Origin: Thiobacillaceae bacterium
GTDB lineage: Bacteria > Pseudomonadota > Gammaproteobacteria > Burkholderiales > Thiobacillaceae
Direction: 5' to 3'
Assembly: GCA_025458005.1 (NCBI GenBank)
Contig: JALOTG010000003.1
Location: 1 to 35,549 of the forward strand
DNA: 35,549 nt
The position numbers were made by a program, and so were the translations under genes. Numbering within the stretch: the stretch's first letter is position 1; each line of letters begins with the position of its first letter. Of this stretch, positions 6,112 to 27,142 are shown in pieces. Under the pieces are notes generated by a model. It had not been told where the DNA came from. It did no database searches and saw only the letters and a program-made list of their open reading frames with translations.

Positions 6112-6416
6112 GGGGCCGCCGCGAGACCGGGAGGGCGAACGATCCGGCATGGGTTGCTCGGGACGGGAGGCTCAAGCGACCGTGCCGGTCCCTCCCGACC
6201 AGACCCGCTGGTGGTTTACGCGAGCCAATCGGAGTACGCTTGAACCAGGGCGCGGCCCGCCCTGTTGCGCATTGGCGACATTGCCGGGCCACCCGATTCC
6301 GAGGCCGGATGTTTAATAGAATTCGCTAATATTCGCTGCCTACAATGGCAACCGGCCTAGACGCTAAACAGAATGGCGCCAGCCCCTCTCAACCGACCAA
6401 CCTCAGGAGCACCACG

Positions 6417-7094
6417 ATGAAGATGACCACCCTTGCCAGCGCCGTTGCCCTGGCCGCCCTGACCCAGACCGCTTTCGCCGCCGGCCCGGAAGACACCGCC
6501 GCCCAGCTGCTGGACCCCGCCAAGGCCGTGCAGCCCATGCAGGATCCGAAGGCCGCCGTGCAGACCATGACCAACCTGATGGATCCCGCCACCGCGATGA
6601 TCATGATGCAGCGCGGCATGGACCCCGCCACCTACACCCGCATGGCCCAGTCCGGCATGTCCCCCGACATCCTGAAGTCCTATGCCGCCTTCCTGGATCC
6701 CGCCATGTACGCCAAGTGGATGTCCGCCGGCATGGATCCCAACTTCTACATGGCCGCCATGGCGCCCTTCATGAACCCCAACATGTACATGAAGTGGATG
6801 ATGGCCCCCATGGATCCGCGCGCGTGGCAGATGATGATGGCCCCCATGAACCCCAACATGTACATGAACTGGGCGATGGCTCCCATGTCCCCGGCCAACA
6901 TGAACCTGATGATGGCCCCCCTGAATCCCAACCTGTACGGTCAGTGGGCCGGCGCCGCCGCCAACCCCGCCACCTACGGCGCCTGGGGCCAGTTCATGAA
7001 TCCCGCCGCCTACGGCAACATGGCCAACCCGTTCGCCGCCTTCATCCCGGCGCCCGCCGCTCCGGCCGCTCCGGCCGCGCCCGCCGCCAAGTAA
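6417..7094 (+). CDS. Secreted methionine-rich tandem-repeat protein, no recognised family
   Basis: AGGAG 8 nt upstream of ATG 6417; signal peptide MKMTTLASAVALAALTQTAFA; 225 aa with 35 Met by hand count, no Cys, no His; repeats such as MNPNMYMKWMMAPMDPRAWQMMMAP / MNPNMYMNWAMAPMSPANMNLMMAP. Confidence 0.9.
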   Translation: MKMTTLASAVALAALTQTAFAAGPEDTAAQLLDPAKAVQPMQDPKAAVQTMTNLMDPATAMIMMQRGMDPATYTRMAQSGMSPDILKSYAAFLDPAMYAKWMSAGMDPNFYMAAMAPFMNPNMYMKWMMAPMDPRAWQMMMAPMNPNMYMNWAMAPMSPANMNLMMAPLNPNLYGQWAGAAANPATYGAWGQFMNPAAYGNMANPFAAFIPAPAAPAAPAAPAAK

Positions 7095-7117
7095 TCCCCG
7101 GCTGAACGGCACCCCCG

Positions 7118-7144
7118 AGGGGCGGACTGGTTCCGCCCCTTTTT
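7118..7144 (+). terminator. Rho-independent terminator after Met-rich gene
   Basis: AGGGGCGGA-CTGG-TTCCGCCCCT followed by T tract. Confidence 0.85.
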
Positions 7145-7191
7145 CATGGCGCCGCCGCGCCGGGCCGACCTCATCCCGCGGCGAGACCGTC

Positions 7192-7806: not shown

Positions 7807-7849
7807 CCGGGCGTTCTGATCAGGGGAGGGGCTGGGCATGGCGTGGAGG

Positions 7850-8028
7850 GACCCCCCGCTCGCGCCGTCCGGACCGCATCTCTTGAACCCAGGGGTTCAA
7901 GGTGGCCGCGGCGCATCGACATCAGGCACATGGGCGAATGCCACGCGCACACCAGCGAGTTGTTGCCGCTGCCTGTGGCACACGTATCGGTTCACAGAAT
8001 ACGCGGCCCTCGCGAACGCAGCAGGGGG
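7850..8028 (-). ncRNA. ssrS: 6S RNA
   Basis: Located between zapA and fau; minus strand contains CACCTTGAACCCCTGGGTTCAAGAG, matching the conserved 6S element CACCTTGAACCAAGGGTTCAAGGG; ends can pair (GACCCCCTGC / GCGGGGGGTC). Ends approximate. Confidence 0.88.
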
Positions 8029-8337
8029 TCAGAACAGATTATCGTGCTGCGCGAGCGCCACATCAAGCAGGCCGTTGAGACGGGCGATCCTGGCCTTGGC
8101 CTCGCCGTCGTCCGCGGCGGGCGGCTTGGCGGCGAGATAGTCGTGGGTGATGTTCAGGGCGGCCATGATGGCGATGCGCTCCAGGCCGATCACCTTGCCC
8201 GTGTCGCGGATCTCGCGCATCTTCCGGTCCAGGAAGGTGACCGCCTGCAGCAGGCCTTCCTTCTCGTCTTCAGGACAGGAGACGCGGAACTCGCGGCCCA
8301 TGATGGCGACATCGAGGCTGACGCTGCGGGCGGACAT
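8029..8337 (-). CDS. zapA: Cell division protein ZapA
   Basis: VSLDVAIMGREFRVSCPEDEKEGLLQAVTFLDRKMREIRDTGKVIGLERIAIMAALNITHDYL. Confidence 0.92.
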   Translation of the reverse strand: MSARSVSLDVAIMGREFRVSCPEDEKEGLLQAVTFLDRKMREIRDTGKVIGLERIAIMAALNITHDYLAAKPPAADDGEAKARIARLNGLLDVALAQHDNLF

Positions 8338-8594: not shown

Positions 8595-9530
8595 ATGAAC
8601 ACGACCAGCCATCCCACCCCCTATCGCGGCCGCTTCGCCCCCACGCCCAGCGGGCCCCTGCATTTCGGCTCCCTGGTGGCGGCCCTGGGCAGTTTTCTGG
8701 AGGCGAGGGCGCACGACGGCGCCTGGCTGGTGCGCATGGAGGACGTCGACCCGCCCCGTGTCGTGGCCGGGGCGGCCGACGACATCCTGCGCACCCTAGA
8801 GGCGTTCGGCTTCGAGTGGGACGGGCCGGTCATGCGCCAGAGCCGGCGCGGCGATGCCTACCGCGACGCCCTGGCCCGCCTCGACCGGACGGGTCTGCTC
8901 TACGCCTGCGCCTGCAGCCGCAAGCGGCTCGGCGAGTCCGCCCGGCGTGGCGTGGACGGTCCCGTGTATCCGGGCACCTGCCGCGGGCGACGCCCCGGCC
9001 AGGGCGAGGCGGCCCTGCGCCTGTCGGTCCCGGACCGGCGCATCGTCTTCGAGGACGCCCTGCAGGGCCGGGTGGCCTGCGATCTGGCGGCGGAATGCGG
9101 CGATTTCGTCGTGCGGCGGGCCGACGGGGTGGTGAGCTACCAGCTGGCGGTGGTGGTGGATGACGCCGAGCAGGGCATCAGCCACGTCGCGCGCGGCGCC
9201 GACCTGCTCACCTCCACGCCGCGCCAGATCATTCTTCAGGACTATCTCGATCTGCCCACGCCGGCCTACCTGCACCTGCCGGTGGCCCTGGACGAACGGG
9301 GCGACAAGCTGTCCAAGCAGACCCTGGCCAAGCGGGTCGACGCCCGCGCGCCGCTGCCGGCCTTGTTCGATGCACTGCGCTTCCTGGGCGTCCCCGCCGA
9401 CCGCTCGGCCGGGAATGTCGGCGAGTTCTGGGAAATGGCCGCGGGCGCCTGGTCGGCCGATCGCCTGCCGCGGCTGCGCGGCAAACGGCTGGCGCCGCCT
9501 AGCGCATGTAGCCCTCGTGCTCCAGCTTGA
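8595..9530 (+). CDS. gluQRS: Glutamyl-Q tRNA(Asp) synthetase
   Basis: YRGRFAPTPSGPLHFGSLVAALGSFLEAR (HIGH-like) and DERGDKLSKQTLAKR (KLSKQ) motifs; truncated GluRS-like length. Confidence 0.93.
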   Translation: MNTTSHPTPYRGRFAPTPSGPLHFGSLVAALGSFLEARAHDGAWLVRMEDVDPPRVVAGAADDILRTLEAFGFEWDGPVMRQSRRGDAYRDALARLDRTGLLYACACSRKRLGESARRGVDGPVYPGTCRGRRPGQGEAALRLSVPDRRIVFEDALQGRVACDLAAECGDFVVRRADGVVSYQLAVVVDDAEQGISHVARGADLLTSTPRQIILQDYLDLPTPAYLHLPVALDERGDKLSKQTLAKRVDARAPLPALFDALRFLGVPADRSAGNVGEFWEMAAGAWSADRLPRLRGKRLAPPSACSPRAPA

Positions 9531-11190
9531 GCACGATCTTCTGCACCGCCTCCTCGACGCTGTACTGGGCGGTGTCGATGGCCAGCTCGGGCGACTCCGG
9601 CACCTCGTAGGGGTCGGACACGCCGGTGAACTCCGGGATCAGGCCGGCGCGCGCCTTGGCGTAGAGCCCCTTGCGGTCGCGCGATTCGCACACGTTGATG
9701 TCGGTGGAGACGTGGATCTCGACGAAGCCGCCCCAGGGCTCGATCATCGCGCGCACGTCGCGGCGCGTCTTGCGGTAGGGGGCGATCGGCGCGCAGATGG
9801 CCACGCCGCCGTGCTTGGTGATCTCCGAGGCGACGAAGCCGATGCGCCGGATGTTGATGTCGCGATGCTCCTTGGAGAAGCCCAGCTCGCTGGACAGGTG
9901 GCGTCGCACCACGTCGCCGTCCAGCAGGGTCACGCGCCGACCGCCCATCTCCATCAGCTTGACGGTCAGTGCCCGGGCGATGGTCGACTTGCCGGCGCCC
10001 GACAGGCCGGTGAGGAAGACCGTGAAGCCCTGGCGGCTGCGCGGCGGATAGGCCTTGCGCAGTTCCTCCACCACCTCCGGGTAGGCGAACCAGTCGGGCA
10101 CCTTGAGGCCCTGCATCAGGCGGCGCCGCAGTTCGGCGCCGCTCATGTGCAGCACGCGCGCCTCGCCCGCCTCGGACTCGGGCAGGTAGGCATCCTGGTC
10201 CTCCACGTAAACCAGGCGCGGGAAGGGCACCAGCTCGATGCCCAGGGCCTCGCGAAAGCGCGCCAGCAGGCCCTGATCCAGGTCGAGGGCGTCGACGCCG
10301 CGGCGCATGTCGCCGGCGGTGTTGTTCTCGCCGCCCACCACCAGGTGGGTGCAGCCGTAGTTGCGCGCCACGATGGCCTTGTACAGCGTTTCGCGCGGGC
10401 CGGCCTTGCGCGGCAGCAGGGCGCTCACCGCGAGCAGGGTGGTGGTGGAGGGAAAACGCGGCAGCAGCGCCTGGCAGGCGCGGATGCGGGTGAAATGGAC
10501 CGGGTCGTGCACCGGGTCGGAGCCGCCCGCCACGTGGATGAACAGGTTGGCCTCGCGCTGCACCGCCGCGTCGAGGAAGAACTCGAACTGCGGGCGGTGC
10601 ATGGGCTCGGCCGGCATGACGCCGAGGATGCGCCGCCAGCCGCGCCGCGCGAACTGGGCGCGCGCCTCGGCGGGGGTCAGGCGCTGGGTGAGGAAGTCGT
10701 GTCTGGGCGGCAGGGCCACCCCTTCGACGCGACCGGCCAGGTAGACCTGGCCCTCTTTCGCGGTGGGAGCGGCAAGGGCCAGACCGGAGGCCTCGGCCAG
10801 CGACTGCTCGCGGGCCGGATCAGCCGACCAGACCTCCGTGACATGCAACACCGCCGGCATAAAACCCTCCGCGTCGCGCAGGGCGACACTCTGCCCGGGC
10901 GCCAGGCCCTCGGCCTGCTTGGCGCTCACCGCCAGGGTGACCGGCAGGGGCCAGAAGCGGCCGTCGGCGAGCTTCAGGCCGGCGAGCACGCTGTCCAGGT
11001 CCGCCTGGCCCATGAAGCCGGTCAGGGGCGCCAGGGCGCCGGTGAGCAGCAGTTCCAGGTCGCACATCTGGCGCCCGTCCAGGTCTACGGACGGGTAGTC
11101 GAGGGCGGCGCGCTTCAGATGCTGGGCGCGGTATGCGTCGACCAGCAGCATGGGCAGGTCGCCGCCGTAGGGAGAGATCAGGTTTTCCAT
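9499..11190 (-). CDS. Bifunctional sulfate adenylyltransferase / adenylylsulfate kinase (Sat-CysC fusion)
   Basis: N-terminal ATP sulfurylase (GRMQ/QxRN-type region, VGGENNTAGDM) fused to APS kinase (FLTGLSGAGKSTIARAL...LLDGDVVRRHLSSELGFSKEHRDINIRRIGFVASEI). Confidence 0.93.
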   Translation of the reverse strand: MENLISPYGGDLPMLLVDAYRAQHLKRAALDYPSVDLDGRQMCDLELLLTGALAPLTGFMGQADLDSVLAGLKLADGRFWPLPVTLAVSAKQAEGLAPGQSVALRDAEGFMPAVLHVTEVWSADPAREQSLAEASGLALAAPTAKEGQVYLAGRVEGVALPPRHDFLTQRLTPAEARAQFARRGWRRILGVMPAEPMHRPQFEFFLDAAVQREANLFIHVAGGSDPVHDPVHFTRIRACQALLPRFPSTTTLLAVSALLPRKAGPRETLYKAIVARNYGCTHLVVGGENNTAGDMRRGVDALDLDQGLLARFREALGIELVPFPRLVYVEDQDAYLPESEAGEARVLHMSGAELRRRLMQGLKVPDWFAYPEVVEELRKAYPPRSRQGFTVFLTGLSGAGKSTIARALTVKLMEMGGRRVTLLDGDVVRRHLSSELGFSKEHRDINIRRIGFVASEITKHGGVAICAPIAPYRKTRRDVRAMIEPWGGFVEIHVSTDINVCESRDRKGLYAKARAGLIPEFTGVSDPYEVPESPELAIDTAQYSVEEAVQKIVLKLEHEGYMR

Positions 11191-26570: not shown

Positions 26571-26947
26571 GGGAGTCGGCCAGACAGCCGCTGCATCCCT
26601 GATGCAGAGGAAAGTCCGGGCTCCATAGGGCAGGGTGCCAGGTAACGCCTGGGCGCTATAAGTCGAAAGACCCAAGGCGACGGACAGTGGAACAGAAAAC
26701 ATACCGCCGATGGCCGGCGCACGGGGCAACCCGGCACCGGATCAGGCAAGGTTGAAATGGCGGGGTAAGAGCCCACCGCGTCCCCGGCAACGGGAACGGC
26801 ACGCAAAACCCCACCCGGAGCAAGGCCAAATAGGCAGACGACGAGGCGGCCCGCCGAGTCTGCGGGTAGGCTGCACGAGGCGGCGGGCGACCGCCGTCCC
26901 AGATGAATGGCTGTCCACGACAGAACCCGGCTTATCGGCCGGCTCCC
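26571..26947 (+). ncRNA. rnpB: RNase P RNA component, bacterial type A
   Basis: GAGGAAAGTCCGGGCTCCATAGGGCAGGGTGCCAGGTAACGCCTGG and AGATGAATGGCTGTCCACGACAGAACCCGGCTTATCGG; ends pair GGGAGTCGGCC / GGCCGGCTCCC. Confidence 0.97.
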
Positions 26948-27142
26948 CTCTCTCCCCGCCCTGCGCGCGCAATGCCTGAACAGCACCCGACCCCGATCGG
27001 GCCGCAAGTTGACCCGGCGCGACCCAATCCTGAGAATCTACTTTAACTTCAACCTCTAGTGCATTATTTGCACGACATCTCGCTGGCCTTGCAACGTCGG
27101 CGGTAAGTCCTTGTTCGGATTAAAAAAAACCACGTATTTCCC

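Follow-up and report, generated by a model that had tools for sequence, protein, structure and literature searches.

The gene at positions 6417-7094 (+) of the window, by which we mean the whole 35,549-nucleotide stretch of Thiobacillaceae DNA analysed here, encodes an exported short-helix-repeat protein; its family, from sulfur-oxidising bacteria, is large and unnamed. We suggest that this family most likely binds or coats elemental sulfur made outside the cytoplasm. A periplasmic, proline-punctuated helical coat or scaffold that binds zero-valent sulfur is the best explanation, and we give it a probability of about one half. The sulfur link of the family is well supported; that the proteins coat sulfur, and that this applies also to the window copy, which lies outside any sulfur operon, is what we infer from it.

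Gene and repeat architecture

The reading frame encodes 225 residues (about 22 kDa) and has relatives in 15 GTDB loci and in 52 of 118 genomes of the family Thiobacillaceae. The ribosome-binding site AGGAG, read directly from the sequence at about 6404-6408 (+), favours the start at 6417 over the longer ORF start at 6345. The translation opens with a 21-residue Sec-type signal peptide, MKMTTLASAVALAALTQTAFA (6417-6479, +), cleaved after AFA; it is recognised by eye, in agreement with the first-pass annotation, and full-length homologues have a similar leader. The array of 12/13-residue units, each opening with [DNS]P, occupies 6513-7025 (+) and is followed by an NPF segment and an Ala/Pro tail (APAAPAAPAAPAAK, 7026-7091, +), which is a low-confidence part of the AlphaFold model. 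Longer tails or an OmpA domain replace this tail in several paralogues. An intrinsic terminator-like hairpin with a T-run is found at 7119-7145 (+), one against 0.5 expected in shuffles.

The [DNS]P dipeptides stand at residues 33, 43, 56, 69, 82, 94, 107, 120, 133, 145, 158, 170, 183, 195 and 204, giving spacings of 10, 13, 13, 13, 12, 13, 13, 13, 12, 13, 12, 13, 12 and 9. The proposed 12-13-residue units opening with D/N/S-P are thus borne out: 12 of the 14 intervals measure 12 or 13 residues, and residue shuffles reach 3 at most (n = 20,000). The proposed 13+12 alternation into a 25-residue unit holds from about residue 120 onward, whereas the N-terminal part is mostly 13+13. At the DNA level the exact repeat of the 23-mer ATGAACCCCAACATGTACATGAA, with copies at 6771 and 6846, 75 bp apart, is confirmed. 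The earlier hand count of 35 Met among the 225 residues, with neither Cys nor His, is exact, and MM, MxM and MxxM motifs are numerous. With a GRAVY of -0.07 over its 204 mature residues the protein is only moderately hydrophobic.

Homologues with a conserved repeat phase exist: orthologues of the window gene keep it, with dN/dS of 0.25-0.54, and the ORF at 6417-7094 is thus a conserved gene. A chance or artefactual origin is ruled out by the shuffles, the orthologues and the purifying selection. We take the antisense ORF at 6357-7112 to be a mirror image of the repeat.

The profile of 753 units from 93 distinct proteins gives the 13-mer consensus [DN]P-x-x-Y-x-x-W-M-x-A-x-M. AlphaFold was run with 15 sequences; in the model of the window protein, of modest confidence (pLDDT 69, pTM 0.54), helices begin at the DP/NP/SP motifs, and the model of one paralogue is poor (pLDDT 57, pTM 0.38). 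The structural check proposed with the first-pass annotation returned helices but, with Foldseek against the PDB, no fold match. Over the unit set the helices are amphipathic, with a mean moment of 0.30 against 0.21 ± 0.006 in shuffles. These helices and their amphipathicity, together with the OmpA fusions of paralogues described below, fit the proline-punctuated helical structural role that the first-pass annotation had listed among its possibilities.

Methionine as a hydrophobic residue

Met enrichment is a property of the whole family. Met content ranges from about 8 to 22% and, across 54 members, is anticorrelated with the content of Leu, Ile, Val and Phe (rho -0.93), their sum being nearly constant (SD 1.3%, against 3.5% for Met alone); Met is invariant or nearly so in few alignment columns only. 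Hence, the Met sites behave as hydrophobic sites. Despite this exchange Met accounts for 63% of M+LIVF in the window protein, while the figure for other genes of that genome is 8.9%, an approximately sevenfold excess among the aliphatics, as expected of a pliable hydrophobic binding surface. In this repeat design Met is a hydrophobic residue that can be exchanged but is strongly preferred.

This exchange bears on two functions proposed earlier. The first is that of an oxidant sink in the periplasm, its methionines being re-reduced by MsrP/MsrQ. The model for it is MrpX, an exported Met-rich polypeptide that Melnyk et al. reportedly described in 2015 with MsrP/MsrQ in Azospira suillum (cited in PMC5358917). 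The window protein shares with MrpX export and richness in Met (35 residues, no Cys), and some 2.6 kb separate a PF01641 gene (MsrB, SelR) from the C197 paralogue, but by eye this MsrB has no obvious export signal. The suggested search for msrP gave no PF00174 match (MsrP fold) in the window genome, an absence that is soft since the genome is about 90% complete; of 38 carriers tested, 19 likewise have no PF00174, and several of them are 98-100% complete. In the neighbour survey no Msr gene recurs beside the family loci. Unlike in MrpX, the partner is thus missing in half of the carriers tested and Met is not conserved as such, which makes an oxidant sink very improbable.

The second function is Cu(I)/Ag(I) binding in the periplasm through Met clusters, as in SilE, PcoE and the Met-rich segments of CopA. 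It would make use of the numerous Met motifs, and the window holds a cation-efflux gene (PF01545, 852-1631). That gene, however, lies about 5 kb away on the strand opposite to the repeat gene and is not recurrent, and no copper gene was recognised by eye among the recurrent neighbours (clusters of 512 neighbour genes). The protein has no His, and homologues replace Met positions by Leu, which is unable to bind Cu(I). We regard metal binding as slightly less probable still than the oxidant sink. The functional interpretation of the first-pass annotation is therefore partly supported: its structural alternative fits, and its two methionine chemistries are poorly supported.

Family and distribution

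Sequence searches of Pfam, NCBIfam and the PDB with the window protein returned nothing significant, in line with the earlier failure to recognise a described family. No name for the repeat family was found in the open-licence literature; most subscription journals lie outside that scope, and an earlier description may exist. The 15 matching GTDB loci are on contigs named Thiobacillus, Hydrogenophilaceae, Gallionellaceae, Parasulfuritortus and others. The 52 carriers among the Thiobacillaceae have 3-11 copies each, and the window genome (G000) has four. Among 400 genomes sampled across the order, a match came from one other Burkholderiales family (genome G300). The G300 protein consists of near-perfect DPKMMNSMMAMG / DPKVWTPWMTAMT units of 12 + 13 residues. 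Queries with it, and then with a broader alignment, against 369 genomes sampled across the class found seven other carriers, distant Gammaproteobacteria included, and the members that we read have NPxxYxxW-type repeats. Beyond the gammaproteobacterium G519 no further relatives were found in its family, of which it is the sole genome sampled. The G300 protein (L097:9695-11029) also has a long Ala/Lys/Gly phasin-like amphipathic C-terminal tail, which is in no other member.

An OmpA domain is present in seven paralogues, for two of which Pfam confirms it. In these proteins (L062:8931-10475, L059:9585-11015, L066:8878-10377, and those of L100, L106, L112 and L116) the repeats are followed by an Ala/Pro linker and the C-terminal OmpA domain. 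This C-terminal domain indicates that the repeat domain faces the periplasm or the envelope. By Pfam search the window protein itself has no OmpA domain.

The OmpA fusions, with an OmpA-domain gene adjoining the C197 copy, also suit a general structural protein of the outer envelope, that is, a helical layer held on the peptidoglycan by the OmpA-domain paralogues. Such a layer would be found in sulfur bacteria through common descent and would not touch sulfur itself. Sulfur genes are not adjacent at most family loci, and the window locus is one of housekeeping synteny, with a cytochrome on one side and ygfA-6S RNA-zapA on the other. Against such a protein stand two observations set out below. 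One is that fcc, sox, DUF302 and sulfur-transporter genes are repeatedly and tightly linked to the family, in a gammaproteobacterium and another family of Burkholderiales as well as in Thiobacillaceae; the other is the way in which family presence tracks the number of flavocytochrome c sulfide dehydrogenase (FCSD) genes within genera. We consider the envelope protein unlikely.

Linkage to sulfur-oxidation genes

Eight Thiobacillaceae paralogues from three genera (in G011, G016, G017 with two, G108 with two, G113 and G114) lie inside clusters of fccA-fccB, DUF302, rhodanese and soxY-soxZ genes in varying combinations. The gap to the next gene is about 20-50 bp in most of them. The order differs by genus, DUF302-repeat-fccA-fccB versus fccA-fccB-repeat-soxY-soxZ. 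One of these clusters (L053) was checked with Pfam and the other fcc/sox loci were annotated by similarity to its proteins; apart from Pfam-checked genes, neighbours in general were annotated by similarity or by eye. The tree unites the window gene with the fcc/sox-linked copies in one clade of 34 members, with 100% SH-aLRT support. Outside the Thiobacillaceae, the G300 repeat gene stands between a PF04143 (YeeE-type) sulfur transporter and a DUF302 gene, and that of G519 adjoins PF04143, with DUF302, SoxY and SoxZ within about 6 kb. This operon context of the paralogues is what the window sequence alone could not reveal.

In the window genome itself, fcc or sox genes adjoin none of the four copies; it is paralogues that carry the sulfur link. 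Housekeeping synteny is seen at most other family loci (neighbour survey, 512 neighbour genes clustered).

DUF302 and repeat proteins look like partners. The DUF302 proteins beside the family (L053:10409-11119, L055:12156-12929, L074:2581-3300) have exported N-terminal parts, some of them Met-rich. Further exported proteins rich in Met, Asn and Pro are encoded in a gammaproteobacterial sulfur island at L090:9502-11501; an LTXXQ/Spy-like domain is present in one, while others belong to no family and have motifs of the QFADPNNMMAWMNP type.

The same neighbourhood invites a different reading, in which the protein is a soluble periplasmic polysulfide carrier or chaperone: its Met-rich helices would hold sulfane sulfur or nascent S8 from FccAB/SoxYZ and pass it to DUF302, rhodanese or transporters, and no globule would be coated. 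The immediate adjacency of repeat genes to fccAB, DUF302, rhodanese and soxYZ, and of relatives to YeeE-type transporters, is consistent with such a carrier. As the protein has no Cys, its binding of sulfur would be hydrophobic and not covalent, and covalent sulfur transfer of the kind carried out by TusA, rhodanese or SoxY is thus closed to it. The 3-11 paralogues per genome and the OmpA fusions, moreover, suggest a structural role at high abundance. We judge a carrier to be improbable, to the same degree as the envelope protein.

Co-occurrence with sulfur oxidation

The family also goes with sulfide oxidation at the level of genomes. Thiobacillaceae genomes with the family (n = 52) have a mean of 3.04 FCSD genes and those without it (n = 66) 1.08; the excess is significant by within-genus permutation (p = 5e-5) and in genus g10 alone (p = 6.5e-6). 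In the class sample dsrA is above the cut-off in 6 of the 7 other carriers versus 113 of 369 genomes overall (Fisher p = 0.004). Both tests, for FCSD and for dsrA, correct only partially for shared ancestry. Among the tested Thiobacillaceae dsrA is nearly universal, occurring also in most genomes without the repeat family; it is therefore uninformative within that family, and FCSD gene number is informative.

The window genome has one SoxY and two FCSD genes, that is, host enzymes able to form periplasmic zero-valent sulfur. No dsrA was found in it, though most relatives carry the gene; at about 90% completeness this absence too is soft, and the gap may reflect assembly loss.

Proposed role

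We suggest the following role for the family. The product would be a Sec-exported, non-enzymatic helical-repeat protein, in which each 12/13-residue unit forms a short amphipathic helix with a [D/N/S]-P cap and a conserved Tyr/Trp/Met face. Chained together, the unit helices would give a flexible, greasy, Met-lined surface. In sulfur-oxidising Beta- and Gammaproteobacteria the presumed site of action is the periplasm or the outer envelope, in which polysulfide or elemental sulfur would arise through flavocytochrome c sulfide dehydrogenase and chemistry of the SoxYZ type. There the repeat proteins may bind and coat zero-valent sulfur, keeping it dispersed and accessible, and would thus correspond in function to the envelope proteins of sulfur globules. 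The OmpA-domain paralogues would tether the sulfur-binding layer to peptidoglycan. The window copy presumably shares the role of its sulfur-linked paralogues. Export, the repeats, the lack of catalytic or covalent-sulfur residues, the multiple copies and the partial co-encoding with polysulfide- or sulfur-producing enzymes are together best fitted by a hydrophobic coat or scaffold.

We more tentatively propose that the family may form an undescribed class of sulfur coat, non-homologous to the known ones: Met/Tyr/Trp-containing 12/13-residue amphipathic helices with peptidoglycan-anchored paralogues and a DUF302 partner, in Beta- and Gammaproteobacteria. If so, a dedicated protein scaffold handles zero-valent sulfur in bacteria for which no sulfur globule proteins are known. 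How insoluble sulfur is handled between FccAB/SoxYZ and further oxidation is poorly understood in sulfur-oxidising betaproteobacteria; in one genome paper an unidentified protein is considered that may release the sulfur visible as early-growth deposits (PMC5248467). A multi-copy unnamed family within the sulfide-oxidation operons of some genera is a direct genetic handle on this sulfur step and on biogenic sulfur formation.

Comparison with known systems

The sulfur globule proteins of Allochromatium are exported and repetitive, with regularly spaced prolines (PMC10386293). The window family appears analogous to SgpA, SgpB, SgpC and SgpD of Allochromatium vinosum, beside which we set it by description: common to both are Sec export, a non-enzymatic character, regular-proline repeats, several paralogues per cell and occurrence in bacteria oxidising sulfide through zero-valent sulfur. 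A further likeness is in the terminator, since sgpD forms a transcription unit by itself and has a terminator of its own (PMC10386293) and the window gene has its terminator-like hairpin. However, SgpA-C are 'extremely hydrophobic' and of 11-13 kDa (PMC10386293), and the window protein is far less hydrophobic and larger; by this comparison, made by description only, we do not file it among the Sgp proteins. The window family differs further in its 12/13-residue [DN]PxxYxxWM helix unit, a very high Met content, OmpA-fused paralogues and, in some genomes, a place in fcc/sox clusters.

With OmpA-family proteins (PF00691) the likeness is limited to the C-terminal domain of some paralogues; the N-terminal part is made of helical repeats and has no beta-barrel. 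Apolipoprotein A-I 22-mers and phasins are proline-separated short amphipathic helices able to spread over a hydrophobic surface. The window protein resembles these coats in its short, proline-punctuated amphipathic helices; it differs in being an exported bacterial protein with a 12/13-residue, Met/Tyr/Trp-rich unit, and Pfam detects no homology.

The window locus

The repeat gene lies in a conserved gene order: cytochrome c, livJHMGF or an alanine symporter, the window-type gene, often a diverged relative of it, 5-formyltetrahydrofolate cyclo-ligase, 6S RNA and ZapA, with the 6S RNA searched for in the window only. The conserved upstream neighbour is a small c-type cytochrome (PF00034, 4141-4446, +) and the downstream one the cyclo-ligase (PF01812, 7192-7806, -). 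The 6S RNA (Rfam RF00013, 68.6 bits; 7849-8030, -) lies between the cyclo-ligase gene and zapA. The alanine symporter takes the place of livJHMGF in the window and in L013.

In many genomes a diverged, Met-poor relative ending in ..RY stands directly downstream of the window-type gene (for example L006:8784-9599, L009:8739-9263, L010:8791-9399, L014:8730-9377 and L064:9193-9819). The window is without this relative, and there the gap from the repeat gene to the next gene is only 97 bases. Elsewhere in the window we note the class A RNase P RNA (RF00010, 279.8 bits) at 26572-26950 (+) and, at 9499-11190 (-), a gene that by eye resembles a fused ATP sulfurylase / APS kinase.
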